Source of the DNA: Filobasidium wieringae
Lineage: Eukaryota > Basidiomycota > Tremellomycetes > Filobasidiales > Filobasidiaceae
DNA length: 64,000 bases
Direction: 5' to 3'
Assembly: GCA_001600055.1 (NCBI GenBank)
Contig: BCIV01000001.1
Span: 248,001 to 312,000, forward strand
Part shown: positions 3,610-11,847 of the stretch, in pieces
Layout of the letters: each line of letters begins with the position of its first letter
Numbering within the stretch: the first letter of the stretch is position 1
The notes under the pieces: generated by a model
The model's database searches: none
Seen by the model: only the letters and a program-made list of their open reading frames with translations
Told to the model about the DNA's origin: nothing
Translations under genes and position numbers: made by a program

Positions 3610-6529
3610 ATGCCTTCCAGTATCAGCATCCCTTTCACTCGTTCCAAGCATTCTTCTCAATCGGATCATATCCGAACGTCATCACTCTCTCAACGATCAT
3701 CTAGCCCTACGCTTCCCCCTTCTTTATCGTCTACTCCTCCTCAAGCACTGCCTTTGAGACCGGAGATGACACCCCCTAATCCTCCTCATTCTCATACCAC
3801 TCGATCAAGCAGACAGACGAGCGCTAAAGCTAGCCTGATGAACGTTTTGGGACCTAGAGAAGACGAGAATGGGAACACCAGCAATGGATCTCCTGTGGAG
3901 TACGGAACGGACGACATGGGTATCCCGGTCAATGCGTACGGGCACATCAAGCCTGGTTTACCTAGCAATGCTTCGTTCGTCACTACATCCACTGCATCAA
4001 CCAAACAACTCCTCACTCCGACCGAGGATGACATCCCCTTACCTTACCCCTATCTAAACCCCAAAACCGCTAAACAAAACCTACCTTACTCATTTGGAAT
4101 TCATCCTACCGCTCAACGTGAACCAGATATCTTGGACCGCCAGACTACCCTCCTCCATTCCAAATTCGATAATCTCTCTCATCAAAACAACCACCATCAG
4201 CTTCACGTTAGCAGTGTCCTTCCTGAGAATCTTCTCCCCATCTTAGAGAAACCTCTTATGATCGGACATGGGCATAACGGAGGTTACGGATTCCCAGCGA
4301 CTGGGTCGGTCAATGGAGTATGGGGAACGAACAAGAGTGGAAACAGGCATTCGGAGTTTGGTTGGGATGGGAATCAGAACTGGAGATATACTAGTCAAGT
4401 GAGTACCCCTATTGATCGATTGTTTAGATTGGCATCAGAGAGGCCGAGGGACCGTATCCTTACTGATCAAAAACATGATGCTGATCACCCCTTCGATTGA
4501 TCCTGTAGTATAACCCTAAGAACAAGGAGCCCGAAGAGAAGGAGCCGACTTACTTCTGGTTGTTGACGACTTATTTCAGGTAAATAGCCGTTCTACGCTT
4601 GGGCCTTGACCTTATATGCTAACTGGGCGATTCACCCTGTAGTTACTTGGTGCTGATTTCGATGGGCCACTTGAGGGATTTCTGGGGAAAGAGGTTTAAC
4701 AAGAAAGAATTTGCTCATTTGATGCCGCAAGATGTAAGTATTTTGTATCAGCCCTTGAATTTTGATCGTGTGACTTACGTGACCCTATTATCTTCTCAGG
4801 GTTACGCTGCTCTGATGTCCGACTTCGATTCCTTTTACACACGTCGACTGAAACTTCGTCTTGATGACTGCTTCTCTCGTCCTACTGCTGGAGTTGCCGG
4901 ACGAACCGTTACTTTGCTCGATCGTGTCAGCAACAATCAACACAAATCATTCGAGTTTACTGGAAATAAAACTCGAGCTTTGAACATCTCTTCTTACAAC
5001 TATCTCGGATTTGCTCAAGCTACTGGAGGATGTGCCGATGCGGTCGAAGCTGGTATACGCAAGTACGGTGTCTCTGCGGGAGGAGCGAGGTTGGAAGCTG
5101 GTACCCTCGACTTGCACGTTCAGGCTGAGAAACTCGCTGCGCAATTCATCGGTACTGAAGATGCCATGATCGTCTCGATGGGTTTCGCTACCAACTCGAC
5201 TACCATTCCTGCCCTTGTGGACAGGGGTTGCCTTGTCATCTCGGACGAGTTCAACCATTCTTCTATCCGATTCGGAGTTAGGTTGTCTGGGGCCAGCGTC
5301 AGGACTTTCAGGCACAATGACATGAAGGCACTCGAGAGGCTTTTGAGGGAGTCCATCAGTCAGGGACAGCCAAGGACCCACAGACCTTGGAAGAAGATTC
5401 TCGTTATTGTTGAGGGGTTGTACTCGATGGAGGGTTCTATGGTTCACCTACCTGAATTGATCGTGTTGAAGGAGAGGTACAAGGTAAGCATAAGCAAGCG
5501 GTAAACGTTACAACCGTTACTAATACTCTTACTACGTAGTTCTATCTATACGTTGACGAAGCTCATTCCATTGGTGCTCTGGGACCTAACGGACGAGGAG
5601 TCTGCGATTACTTTGGGGTGGATCCTAGATGCATTGATATCTTGATGGGAACTTTCACAAAGTCGTTCGGTGCCTCTGGTAAATCATAAAACATGAACTC
5701 CTTCTCCGAAATATAAAGTCTGACAGATCTTATATTGCAGGTGGTTACATTGCTGGTAGCAAGGAGACTATTGATCGTCTTCGTATCAAGTCTCATTCGA
5801 TGTGTTATGCTGAAGCCATGACCCCGCCGGTCGTGACTCAGATCGTTGCATCCATGGCTTCCATCATGGGCGTCTCCCCTCCTCTCACTGCGGCATCCAA
5901 TTCACCTGTTCATAAACCTACACTATCGCTACACGCTTCGTCCTCCGATACCGATCTTCCCGCTTTGACTATGGCGTACGAACCTGGCCCTCCCGTTTAT
6001 GGACCAGCTCCTGCTTCTTACCTGCCTAACTGGCTACACCTTCCACCCGCATTGCTAAACGGTACTGAAGGTCGCGAAAGGTTGAGGCGACTCGCTTTCA
6101 ACTCGAGATACTTGAGCTCTGGATTGAGGAAGCTAGGGTTCATCATCAGCGGTCACCGAGATTCGCCCATCGTACCCTTGTTCTTGTTTCACCCTGGAAA
6201 GATGCCCATCTTCTCGAGGATGATGCTGGAGCGTGTAGGAAAGGACAGGACCCCAGTGGTCGTGGTAGTTGTTGCCTATCCGTAAGTTTGTGCTTTTCCA
6301 CCTTGTGATAGACAATACATATTCACGCTTCCTTCGATACAGCGCTACCCCGTTGATCTCGTCTCGAGTCCGTTTCTGCCTTTCAGCCGCTCATACCAAG
6401 CACGATATCGATCTCATTCTCCGTGCTTGTGACGAAGTTGGTGATATCCTTGATCTCAAGACTGGAAAGCATAGATGGACCGTTGAGGAGGTCATCCGCC
6501 GTGCCGAAGAGCTCGTTCATGAGGACTGA
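3610..6529 (+). CDS. LCB2: Serine palmitoyltransferase subunit 2 (Lcb2)
   Basis: Seven exons (3610-4398, 4509-4579, 4643-4733, 4800-5483, 5540-5678, 5741-6281, 6343-6529) encode 833 residues. With Lcb1 the enzyme condenses L-serine and palmitoyl-CoA to 3-ketosphinganine at the ER, the first step of sphingolipid synthesis. A hydrophobic helix sits at about 274-292 ([19 protein letters not shown]). The aminotransferase fold follows: [25 protein letters not shown], the DEFNHSS and [11 protein letters not shown] motifs, and [12 protein letters not shown] with the PLP lysine at about K586. All six introns are 56-110 nt and keep frame. The first exon adds roughly 210 Ser/Pro/Thr-rich residues ahead of the helix compared with usual Lcb2 proteins (about 560-600 residues). 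Confidence 0.96.
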
Positions 6530-6867: not shown

Positions 6868-9452
6868 ATGTTTCACACAACCCAACGCGCAATCACAGAA
6901 CCAGTCTGTGTCACCGAACAAATCTATCCCTATATCTCCGAACCTCTCGCAGCAGCAAAAATCAGCTTCCCTACTTCAGACCCTGCCACTTGCGCCACTT
7001 GGATAGGCTCAGGGGCTACGAGTACAGCACAGAAACGACTCACTACGGTAACACCAAAGTTGCTGCTCACAATCAAACGATCAAACTCGACCGGAGCGAT
7101 TACAATCTATTACTCCGGAGGTCCTGAGCAATTGGAATTTTGCGTAAGAGTAGGAGATGTCGTTGAGTATAAAACCACTGAACATTCAGGATTCGGTAAA
7201 ATATGGTCGATTGGACCGGGTCACAAGCGTGACTTGGAGATACACCTACAGTTTTGGAGACATGACATGAAGGGCCTGACTCATGGTCATCCCGGACGTC
7301 TCCATCAACTTGAGACACATACACTTACAAACGAATTAAGGCCATCTCATATCGTGAGAAAACTTGATATCATATACGAAGCCCTTGAAGCGGGAAAAGC
7401 TCATCCGGTCCTCGCATCGGCCACAAGCTATATATGTTCACATCGGTGAGTCAAAATCGTTTGTCAAGCGGTTAATCAACCCGCCTAGCTGACTTCGATT
7501 CTGGTCAAGATTTATTGAAGAGAACAATAGTTATATCACTATTCCTGTTAACGAATCTGAATGTCCAGGCTGTCTCAAATCGCGCCGCTCTGGGATCAAA
7601 TATCTGGCGAACGATATTGTGAGGTATCAGCCGTTTGGCGAGACCTCAAGTAATCTTGGCATTCTTTTGCACGTTGTCAATACAACCTGCCGGATCCTAC
7701 CTCTCTCCCGCTGGGATACATTCCTTGACCGAGACGGATTGGCCGATATTGAGGCATTCCGCAGAGACAACAAGTTGTTCTATGTCGACAAGAGCGCAAA
7801 GGCCTTGTTACTGAAGAAAGATCGGATCCATGGCAAAGCCGAACTAATCGGATTATCCAGGATTGCGGAACTTGGAGCAGCTATTCGAGAAAAGACGCTG
7901 GCAACGCAGAGCGACTTCTGGATTGGGCAGGTTTTTGTCGCAAAATCCGAGAACATCTTCTCCTTGATTGATACCGATAGTGTCGATCGACTTTGGCTCT
8001 CGTCGGAGAAACAGAATATTTGGGCACACAGACAAGGATGGCTCCGACATCTGCGTTTTGATGCATTGAAACTGGACCATGAGGGCCTCAAGGCTCGTTG
8101 TATAGAAGCGGTCGTATTTCGCCAGGAGGTTGGTTCTAAGATCGCGATAATCGATTGCTGCGCGGGAGTAGGAGCTTTCAGTGCTGGACTAGTCAACTCT
8201 GCAGGGGCGGTAGTTCCACTAGCGATTGAAAATAACCCTTCTGTAGCGCAGAGTTATGCGAGATTGCATCCAAATACGCTCGTCTTGGACAAAGGTGCTG
8301 CATTTGCAGCCCAAAACTGGTCAACAATCAAGGCACGAGCCGGTCTAGACAAGTATGACCATACGATTCTACAAGCTGGCATTCCTTGCCAGCCATTCTC
8401 TAGGGCAAACCGCAAACCGCAACATGACGACCCGCGCTGCGGCGTGTTGTTCGAAGTTCTAAGTCTTCTCCAGGTCTCTCGAGCTTCGTATCTGCTACTT
8501 GAGTGTGTGGAAGGTATACTCCATCATGTCAGTGTTCCGGAGGGTAGGAGTCGCTCCGAGCCTGTTGGTCAGCTTTGGTCTCTGGCGCTCCGAATCATAA
8601 TGGACATGGGCTACCAGGTCTCGATCAATGTGCATCAGGGAGCCAACTATGGAGTTCCCCAAGATAGGAAAAGGGTGTTCATCTGGGCTGCTAAGAAAGA
8701 ACTCATCCTTCCTGCGCCCCCGCCTCCTATCTACTCTTTCTTCAAAAGTATAGGCGACCGCTGGTTGAGTAACATGAGGATATCACCTCAGAACTGTATG
8801 GGAGCGGTATTACCATCTGTTCGGAGGATGGACGCTCTGTCAGACTTGCCTAAGTTCAATGCTCGGGAGTGAGTGTCACAATCCCTTAGCCCGGACCAAA
8901 GATGGCTTACTGAAGAATTTCCGTTTAGAGCATTTCACGGCACAGAGCGCTCTCAGTTTTATGGATTCCTCACTAAGAAGTCATATGGACATCCGCCACG
9001 CAACAACTACCAGCTGTGTATGCGAGACGAGCTTGTGAAAAGAGTATCGGAGCAGTACTGCCATGTACCTACGTTGGATGCATGGGAACGAATGGAACAA
9101 GAGCAGATGTCTAGGAAAGATGTCTTCCCAACTCTTACGACTTCTAGACCCCTCATACATCCTGACGAAAAAAGACCTCTAAGCAGGCGAGAGATCTGCC
9201 GGATAACCGGTATACCGGACAGTATAGCACCCCGCCTTCGTGAGACCTGTACAGAGAATGAGCTCATCGAAGAGTACACGCACGTAAGTGATGCGATATA
9301 GACGTTCTTTTCCAAAGCTTAGTATCACGTTGCGACTTTGATCCTAGATCCGTCTTCTTGCAGGCAACGCAGTTCCTGTACAGCTCGCTGAAGCTCACGG
9401 CCGAGCGCTTATTCAAGCGATCGGACGTTTCTATGGTCGCGAGTTGATCTGA
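6868..9452 (+). CDS. dnmtX: BAH-domain DNA (cytosine-5) methyltransferase, DnmtX-like
   Basis: Four exons (6868-7445, 7510-8868, 8939 corrected to 8929-9283, 9348-9452) encode 798 residues. About residues 105-200 resemble a BAH domain (VRVGDVVEYKT, then ELRPSHIVRKLDIIYEA). A second BAH-like or linker region begins near residue 220 (IKYLANDIVRYQPFG), after a CPGC pair. The C-terminal catalytic domain has motif I at about 407 (DCCAGVGAFSAGL), motif IV with the nucleophile C486 (GIPCQPFS), motif VI with E524 written ECV instead of ENV, motif VIII (QDRKRVFIWA, about 577) and motif X after the last intron (GNAVPVQLAEAHG, about 770). The enzyme transfers methyl groups from SAM to DNA cytosines. BAH plus catalytic domain without a Snf2 ATPase excludes the Dnmt5 maintenance enzyme and fits DnmtX. 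The gene is intact, with no stop or frameshift. Confidence 0.9.
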
Positions 9453-9552: not shown

Positions 9553-11847
9553 TCAAATCCGTAAACTCTCTCCGTTCTTTGCCCATTCTTCTGCTTCTAA
9601 AACCATCTGTCGCTTGTTCTTGAGCTCTTCTTCGCCCCCCTCAGTTGCCCCTTCAAACACGAATTCTACGCTCAGCATAGCCCTTGAATAATCACCGACT
9701 GTACGCCCAGTTATAATGCTCGTTTTTCGTGCTTCCGCAGGCCAAATCCATCGGGAACCAGGCCCTTTGGTTGTTGTGATATATGGTAAGCCATGTATTC
9801 GGCTTGTCTCGGATGTAGTGGGCTGTGTATCGAGTGATATATGTGGCAAGTTGGTATGCGCCTGTTATGGATCGTCGCGTCAGCTCTGGTCGTAAGAACA
9901 CCTGAAGTTGAAAGCGAGAGTCGACGCACTTCGAAGACTCCAACGGCTTTTCCTGCTTCGAACCGTCTTGCTCTGTCACGCTTACGCTTCATAGTCTCCT
10001 TAGGCGTTTCAACCACGACTTGGCCATAATCTCGTTGACCGGAACTGAGCGCATCAATATTGAGTGATCCATCCTCTTTCTCCACATTATTATCCGCCTG
10101 GATGCGTTGTCGGAAGGATTCGTCATGCAGGTATAGTTGTTCTACTTTGTCCTCACTTGGTATTTTGAGGGGTGTTTTGCGAGTAGCAGCTGTCTTCGCG
10201 TCTTCTTCGTCCCCCTCCAAATCGAGATCTGCTCGCTTAGACAGCCCTGCGACCTGTCCATATTGGGTATGCCAAGCGAACAATCCTCTTGCCTCTCCAA
10301 GATCCATCATCCTCTCCAGTCTTTCGCTCTTCATCTGATCTTCCCACTGACGTGCTGTCGAGGCCATCTTCCACATCCAATTGTCCGGACCAATCCCTCT
10401 GCTAACCAGTTTAGCCCGCTTGTTTCCGTACCCTGCACCAGTCCACGGGTCTATACCATCGTCTCCCCAATGAGTCGTTGGTCCGCCGGCCGTATAGAAA
10501 GGTGTACCGATCGCTCGCTCTTCACCACCACGATTCGCTCGTTCGCCAGGTTCTTCGCGTCGAATGGGTGGTACTACACTGCCGGATTCTATACCATCTT
10601 GCTCACACTTCTCTAATGCGGAATCTTCGAAATAATCATCTACTACGTGTCTTCCATCTAGTAGAAACGAATACAAGCGATCAGCACACTATACCAATTG
10701 AATCTCAATCCGCCTCACTTACTTTTGATGATCCTGGCTCCCATGTATTTGAAGATATTGCGAGCCGCATAGATAGTGACCGGTCTCCCATTGTGAAAGT
10801 TTGATCCTCCAACAAAGCCTTGCTTCAATAGCATGACCTTTTCGGTCTCGCTCAAATAGGCTTTGACCAAGAATTGAAACCGCCGCGCGAGCAAGGAAGA
10901 ATCGGTGTGGCCCGCTGCTTTCGCAACGTCGATACCGAGCATGTAGAGTTTGGTGGAGTTCGGCCGTTCTGGGCAGACAAAGGTATCTACTTTATATTCT
11001 CGGTCTATACGGAAAGGAACGGTAAGACTACCGTTCAGGTCGATCCTAAAGGATATCGTGGCTAACAGCTTACCTCCCAGCAATTGCCCATTCTCATCAA
11101 CCTTCTCATCCCCCTTTTCGTCATCTTCCATAGCTACTTCGTCATCTATCACCTCATATGCAACCCCTCGAACTTTGTGAATCCTGAAAGAGTCTGTTCA
11201 ATTGCAAAGGTCGAGCTATTTCATAAGCCGAAAACACGCCGTAATGGCCAAGGTAAAGTATACTGACGTCTAGGCTCTTCCGAAATTTGTCTCGAATCCA
11301 TTCCATCTTCCCCTGCCTCATCATCCGGCGATCCCGCTCTACTTTGTCTGATTAATTTTGATGGTCGTCCTCTACCCCTTCCTCTTCCTCTTCCCCTTGT
11401 ACGAGGTTGATTTCTCGACGGCACCAGTGGTTTGGGATTCCGTCGGGAAGGAGTACCTGTCTCCTCGTCCAGTTCTGCTTCTTCCTCATCTTCCTCATCT
11501 ACCTCTTGATCCGCGTCGTCTATCAGACATACGGAAATATCGTCAAATGCAGTTCCTAATTCTCAATGACCGCTTTGTTACTAACCAGCCGCGTCCTTCA
11601 TGATCACATCCTCATTTTCCTGAGGATCGTCAACATCAACCAGATCCTCTGCCTTAACGTCTTCATCCGAAGAACCTTCTAAATCATCCGTCCCTACAGG
11701 AACCTCCGCATAAGAGACTTTCTTCGCCAGCGCCCTTCTCCTGGACGTTGTCGAGATTGTAGGCAGGTCAATGGGTTGGCTGGAAGCGGAGATGGCTGCA
11801 GATGCAGCCGCAGCTGCTGAACGTCTGGTTCTTGTGGAATAGCTCAT
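9553..11847 (-). CDS. RSC7: Rsc7/Swp82 (Npl6)-family chromatin remodelling complex subunit
   Basis: Five exons on the minus strand (11586-11847, 11268-11519, 10723-11193, 9930-10657, 9553-9861) encode 673 residues. The family is the CRC_subunit (Rsc7/Swp82) of RSC and SWI/SNF nucleosome remodellers. Exon 1 is Ala/Ser-rich then acidic. Exon 2 carries an AT-hook-like run (RGRGRGRGRGRPSK). The core reads EVIDDEVAMEDDEKGDEKVDENGQLLGG and TKLYMLGIDVAKAAGHTDS (split here to short pieces), then ARNIFKYMGARII and GRHVVDDYFED, as expected of the domain. The C-terminal HTNLPHISLDTQPT is also family-like. One junction is ambiguous: exon 2 can end at 11268 (GTCAGT, used here) or a few bases on at GTATAC, both in frame. 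It is convergent with the methyltransferase gene, 100 bp apart. Confidence 0.88.

Follow-up and report, generated by a model that had tools for sequence, protein, structure and literature searches.

A putative stand-alone C5-cytosine DNA methyltransferase beside Dnmt5 in Filobasidium wieringae, a candidate de novo enzyme

Introduction

The closest described counterpart of the gene reported here is DnmtX, a BAH and DNMT protein which is described as present, with Dnmt5, in all Kwoniella species and as lost in Cryptococcus and Bullera alba (PMC11185503). Methylation in Cryptococcus is thought to have been kept by copying alone since the loss of DnmtX 50-150 million years ago (PMC13297926), and the partners described for Dnmt5 in C. 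neoformans are Uhrf1 and Swi6, an HP1 protein (PMC8091789). Naganishia, which belongs to the same order as the genome considered here, has been studied by methylation-sensitive amplified polymorphism, with no enzyme named in the part of that paper available to us (PMC7074839). In the literature on Filobasidium and the Filobasidiales, covered mostly through papers outside subscription, we found no report of an enzyme of this kind in the genus.

The window, by which we mean the whole stretch of DNA analysed, comprises 64,000 nt of Filobasidium wieringae (GCA_001600055.1, contig BCIV01000001.1, 248,001-312,000 of the forward strand), and searches of the same genome cover 19.76 Mb in 33 contigs. 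The original prediction for this DNA was that it retains the de novo enzyme which the Cryptococcus-Kwoniella lineage has partly lost. What stood of this is an apparently intact, stand-alone C5-methyltransferase whose core is DNMT1-like, together with a Dnmt5 in the same genome; the lineage setting had to be given up.

Host lineage

The host was placed by one gene, LCB2 (serine palmitoyltransferase), which lies just upstream of the methyltransferase at about 4620-6529 (+) and can serve as a synteny anchor. Its closest match is that of Filobasidium floriforme (Tremellomycetes, Filobasidiales) at 91% identity, followed by a metagenome protein at 90%, then by Naganishia (76 and 73%) and Kwoniella (71-73%). 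In a tree of 21 LCB2 rows the window protein groups with F. floriforme and the metagenome protein (100/100), and all six Filobasidiales-like rows stand together (99/99), apart from seven Tremellales. These matches and this tree rule out a Cryptococcus or Kwoniella genome and put the host in the Filobasidiales, outside the lineage that had been assumed, so the frame of loss between Cryptococcus and Kwoniella does not apply directly. A second potential synteny anchor, a Rsc7/Swp82-like chromatin remodeller subunit (PF08624), lies downstream of the methyltransferase at 10715-11197 (-).

Gene structure and catalytic domain

The methyltransferase gene (6868-9452, +) runs from ATG to stop and encodes 798 aa once three introns are removed, their splice sites being GT-AG predictions from the DNA letters (Table 1). 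A frame with no stop or frameshift had been claimed, which is correct after splicing, whereas the unspliced frames are broken at the introns. Two alternative acceptors for intron 2, at 8889 and 8901, would keep the frame too but leave introns of only 21 or 33 nt. The coding sequence has a G+C content of 49.1%, against 49.5% for the window.

Table 1. Features of the methyltransferase gene in the window, and the Dnmt5 ortholog elsewhere in the same genome
Feature	Position	Strand	Remarks
Exon 1	6868..7445	+	starts with ATG; N-terminal region, residues 1-192 with part of 193
Predicted intron 1	7446..7509	+	64 nt, GTGAGT...CAAG
Exon 2	7510..8868	+	remaining N-terminal half and catalytic core, motifs I to VIII
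Motif I	8153..8182	+	DCCAGVGAFS, residues 408-417; degenerate relative to DLFAGxGGxS
Motif IV, catalytic cysteine C486	8387..8389	+	within GIPCQPFS
Motif VI triad ECV	8501..8509	+	residues 524-526, Glu is E524
Motif VIII QDRKR	8660..8674	+	residues 577-581
Predicted intron 2	8869..8928	+	60 nt, GTGAGT...TTTAG
Exon 3	8929..9283	+	target recognition region and motif IX
Predicted intron 3	9284..9347	+	64 nt, GTAAGT...CCTAG
Exon 4	9348..9452	+	motif X and stop codon
Motif X GNAVP	9363-9377	+	from residue 770
Dnmt5 ortholog	L028 1033-8824	+	PDB 7r76 match

Pfam recognises PF00145 at residues 405-786 (E 4.8e-37, 128.5 bits) and, at E up to 1, neither SNF2 nor any other domain beside it, which bears out the claim that no Snf2 helicase is present; the fusion of SNF2 to a methyltransferase by which Dnmt5 is recognised is absent from this protein by Pfam. 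Motifs I, IV (PCQ, C486), VI, VIII and X follow one another in the order predicted; motif VI reads ECV and departs from ENV, the form found in 88 of 88 retrieved relatives. The protein thus keeps the PCQ, the motif VI glutamate, QxRxR and GNxV of PF00145 members and lacks the canonical ENV triad. The ECV form does not exclude it from the C5-methyltransferase superfamily, since RID proteins also lack ENV, although together with the degenerate motif I it means that methyltransferase activity may be altered.

Among solved structures MET1 and DNMT1 come nearest, in sequence and in Foldseek comparison alike, and in the PDB sequence search MET1 scores 64 bits against 28 bits for DIM-2. The spacing between motifs VIII and IX is 146 residues. 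The locus is best described as encoding, so far as can be predicted from its sequence, a C5-cytosine DNA methyltransferase that is intact, evolves fast and has a DNMT1-like core, and the protein is probably an active one.

The N-terminal half

At least one BAH-like domain had been predicted ahead of the catalytic motifs, and it found no support in Pfam, the PDB sequence search, a local model, hhalign or the exon 1 fold. Pfam at E up to 10 gave no domain in residues 1-194 or 195-403. The PDB sequence search, also at E up to 10, gave no match for exon 1, and with the start of exon 2 it gave a single unrelated match at E 1. A small local model built from five BAH stretches, which is a weak test, scored two real segments no better than many of their shuffled versions (equalled by 102/200 and 71/200 shuffles) and gave no score at all on the whole N-terminal segment; comparison of the N-terminal region with BAH by hhalign found nothing. 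Exon 1 folded as a single sequence is strand-rich and of low confidence (mean pLDDT 42), and the 50 matches listed for this fold include no BAH chain and none with E <=0.001. The order of conserved-looking residues in the N-terminal half is BAH-like by eye, which is a lead and not a test.

Pfam likewise finds no RFD/RFTS or CXXC domain, PF00145 being its only match, but divergent forms of either could be missed because the same scan is silent on BAH too. A scan of the genome for the RFD family says nothing on this point, since no control gave a signal in it.

Relatives of the enzyme

Two homology searches, with the whole protein and with the catalytic core, were run against a database of 5.8 billion proteins, and neither found a close relative. 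The whole-protein search, in which scoring was confined to the 7995 candidates with the most words in common, gave six matches, the best being a plant DNMT1-type protein at 26% identity and the DNMT1-type matches as a group spanning 23-30%. The core search gave 82 matches at 25-37% identity, and the few that carry organism names are bacterial. Best scores for the catalytic core are 71.5 bits for a plant protein and 64.2 bits for a bacterial one.

The same database holds at least LCB2 proteins of F. floriforme and Naganishia and a dozen Kwoniella entries, yet no protein of these three appears among the methyltransferase matches. An ortholog from the same genus annotated at 439-1396 aa should have surfaced, and the result suggests an annotated F. 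floriforme protein set without the methyltransferase. A distant DnmtX could nevertheless be missed, because each of the 82 core matches has four or more 5-residue words in common with the query. The viral and prokaryote contig scans, which reach close relatives only, found none, and neither a DNA_methylase family scan of the genome (not exhaustive) nor one with exon 2 showed a second copy.

A tree built from 33 catalytic domains gives the window enzyme a branch 2.7 long, which leaves an open fork next to three long bacterial rows and falls outside the eukaryotic group (87/75) and outside the main bacterial groups. Sequence alone does not place it.

Dnmt5 and silencing genes in the same genome

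A Dnmt5 in the same genome had been proposed as something to look for, and it was found at L028 (C6:629600-639500). The route to it led through the SNF2 matches of the genome, which number 39 and fall in about 21 genes; 20 loci were inspected for helicase motifs and two compared with the PDB. L028 matches PDB entry 7r76 with 693.5 bits over chain residues 1287-2280, its methyltransferase core alone reaches 225.9 bits against the same entry, and the stretch AGTSCVDYSNLNN is identical in both. We take 7r76 to be C. neoformans Dnmt5 and the cysteine of AGTSCVDYSNLNN to be the catalytic one in that enzyme. The entry is labelled 'DNA repair protein Rad8' in the PDB, and fungal Rad8 in that sense is equated with DNMT5 in a review (PMC7862722).

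A six-frame scan of the genome with PF00145 reports the window gene only and not the methyltransferase domain of Dnmt5, probably because introns split that domain. On that scan alone Dnmt5 would have seemed to be missing, a suggestion overturned by the SNF2 loci, and absence calls from six-frame scans in intron-rich yeasts are unsafe. Pfam found no chromodomain in the two N-terminal open frames of L028 that were scanned, and this Dnmt5 may be targeted differently from that of C. neoformans. The same N-terminal frames contain a PCNA-box-like stretch, QTTLFGFM. L023 was also considered as a Dnmt5 and rejected, since it encodes another SNF2 protein, whose nearest PDB match is bacterial RapA. It is an unusual one (L023:5476-7485, +, with LCDGVGMGKT), and the contig that carries it (C23, 115 kb) also carries a Copia-type element, L038.

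Counterparts of the other silencing components could be recognised as well. An SRA domain at C13:525490-526041 (-), with 142 bits, likely belongs to a Uhrf1-type reader of hemimethylated CpG, to judge from the match, and an HP1-type chromoshadow domain was found at 45 bits. Pre-SET gave two weak matches below cut-off. RNAi genes also seem to be present, going by domain matches, with RNA-dependent RNA polymerase at four loci (contigs C3, C4, C5 and C15) and Argonaute at one (contig C19). As Dnmt5 acts with Uhrf1 and Swi6 in C. neoformans and each of the three has a likely counterpart here, the methylation-copying machinery of this genome looks complete.

CpG footprint in retrotransposons

Of the 22 integrase loci found in the genome, 14 were examined for a possible footprint of methylation. 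Ten of these (L039-L041 and L043-L049) are copies of one Copia-type family, with one locus on each of ten contigs, membership resting on Pfam domains in three copies and on DNA similarity for the others. Such a spread over contigs would be expected of centromere clusters. L049 is on C2, where a second integrase match is found some 10 kb away.

All ten Copia copies are CpG-poor, with observed/expected ratios of 0.35-0.48 against 0.89-1.09 in 20 genic loci, where the lowest of 180 1-kb windows is at 0.63. The copies show an excess of TpG/CpA (1.32-1.49), a GpC ratio of 0.85-0.97, and a CpT/ApG ratio that is somewhat raised (1.09-1.28 against 0.94-1.14 in genic loci). Three LTR elements of other families (L036-L038) are not CpG-poor, at 1.03-1.13, and a partly masked locus, L042, stands at 0.72.

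In five comparisons between pairs of copies the transition rate at CpG is 0.21-0.36, against 0.09-0.12 at other C/G positions. Singleton changes of CG to TG/CA across the ten copies affect 7 of 10 near-fixed CpG sites and 52 of 457 other C/G sites (Fisher p 3e-5), and the reverse change, to CpG, affects 10 of 180; the seven events are confined to four of the ten copies. Simple decay of dead copies was rejected as an explanation of the CpG poverty, as copies with long open frames (L045 and L047) are equally CpG-poor, and much of the composition therefore predates the copies and belongs in part to the family as such. The pattern is what past CpG methylation of transposon copies would leave, on small numbers, and it could alternatively come from Dnmt5 alone, from a RIP-like process, or from an element that arrived from a CpG-poor host.

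Interpretation

We consider a de novo role beside Dnmt5 to be the best reading of the window enzyme, with a probability of roughly 0.5. Retrotransposon copies would need new methylation after insertion because they are made from RNA. The window enzyme would place new CpG methylation on such copies, Dnmt5 would then copy the marks at each division, probably assisted by the SRA protein and HP1, and the two enzymes would work like the DnmtX-Dnmt5 pair of Kwoniella. Several observations weigh against a de novo partner. Its motif VI reads ECV and its motif I is degenerate, the domain searches showed no targeting domain, BAH or other, in it, and L036-L038, with L042 at its intermediate value, do not share the CpG poverty. 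The signal from after insertion amounts to the seven events in four copies, beside the reverse changes counted above, and the want of an annotated relative in F. floriforme fits ill with a long-retained essential partner.

As to origin, the foremost account is that the enzyme is the ancestral DnmtX of the Tremellomycetes, kept here and lost elsewhere, and thus an ortholog of DnmtX, which we regard as a serious possibility that falls a little short of even odds. Like DnmtX as published, the protein lacks SNF2, is shorter than Dnmt5 and is paired with it; DnmtX has been called an orphan DNMT (PMC10538959) and the window enzyme is an orphan in our tree too, and losses of DnmtX are on record for Cryptococcus and Bullera alba (PMC11185503). 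The failure of the tests to show a BAH domain counts against it, as does the silence of Kwoniella in searches of a database where Kwoniella is represented, tempered by the chance of overlooking a distant ortholog. More tentatively, the Filobasidiales may keep a de novo enzyme peculiar to them, with ECV as a third form of motif VI after ENV and the EQT/EET of RID, and patchy even between close Filobasidium species. If this is true, sister species with and without the enzyme would offer a natural test of the time for which Dnmt5 by itself can sustain methylation outside Cryptococcus.

It is unlikely, though worth weighing, that this branch of Filobasidium acquired the gene from another organism, with introns and divergence following later. 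The failure of F. floriforme and Naganishia relatives to surface from a database that contains both, the near equality of the bacterial and plant scores, and a longer stretch after motif VI that the core by eye shares with Bacteroidota-type enzymes would all fit such an event. Set against it are the three short introns and a base composition like that of the window, an N-terminal half, some 400 residues long, for which the shorter bacterial matches (mostly 440-480 aa in total) have no room, the empty viral and prokaryote scans within their reach of close relatives, and best scores that still belong to plant DNMT1-type proteins.

A similarly low probability attaches to a decaying or re-purposed enzyme that is catalytically weak and comparable to RID. 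The ECV triad where all 88 relatives have ENV, the degenerate motif I and the long branch would be expected of it, but the 798-codon spliced frame is open and the catalytic cysteine, the motif VI glutamate, QxRxR and GNxV are retained. Least probable of all is a maintenance enzyme of the DNMT1 type, suggested by MET1 and DNMT1 as the nearest solved structures, since Pfam finds no RFD/RFTS or CXXC (divergent forms could be missed) and the genome already has Dnmt5, which serves for maintenance in C. neoformans.

On the de novo reading, the Filobasidium lineage may still place new methylation marks. A second order with Dnmt5 and a candidate de novo enzyme, carried by one species and not seen among the annotated proteins of its nearest relative in the database, would let the claim of copying only in Cryptococcus be retested in other yeasts, and it would bear on whether the ancestor of all Tremellomycetes had a de novo enzyme.

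Comparison with known systems

Dnmt5 of the same genome (L028) is set apart from the window protein by its SNF2 domain. RID/Masc1 proteins are of similar length (PaRid, 752 aa) and also have a motif VI other than ENV, but in RID motif VI is described as EQT or EET and the TRD as about 80 aa long (PMC6709928); here motif VI is ECV, and motifs VIII and IX stand 146 residues apart. Neurospora DIM-2 has a similar core fold, and differs in its lower score against the window enzyme (28 bits, with MET1 at 64 bits) and in carrying RFTS, BAH1 and BAH2, none of which Pfam recognises in window residues 1-403.

DNMT1 and MET1 share the catalytic fold and are the best matches by sequence and by Foldseek, although the window enzyme is only 23-30% identical to DNMT1-type proteins and Pfam finds in it no RFD/RFTS or CXXC. 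Of five DNMT1-type proteins retrieved, four have motifs VIII and IX spaced by 189-228 residues, against the 146 of the window enzyme; in the fifth, P0003, the spacing is 83, with much of that region missing.

The likeness to Kwoniella DnmtX (DMTX; K. mangroviensis XP_019001759) lies in its description as a stand-alone orphan DNMT without SNF2 that coexists with Dnmt5. The two differ in that the host of the window enzyme belongs to the Filobasidiales and in that BAH is part of DnmtX and did not show in the window protein under the tests above; the comparison is one of descriptions rather than of sequences, and by description DnmtX shares with the window enzyme its pairing with Dnmt5.
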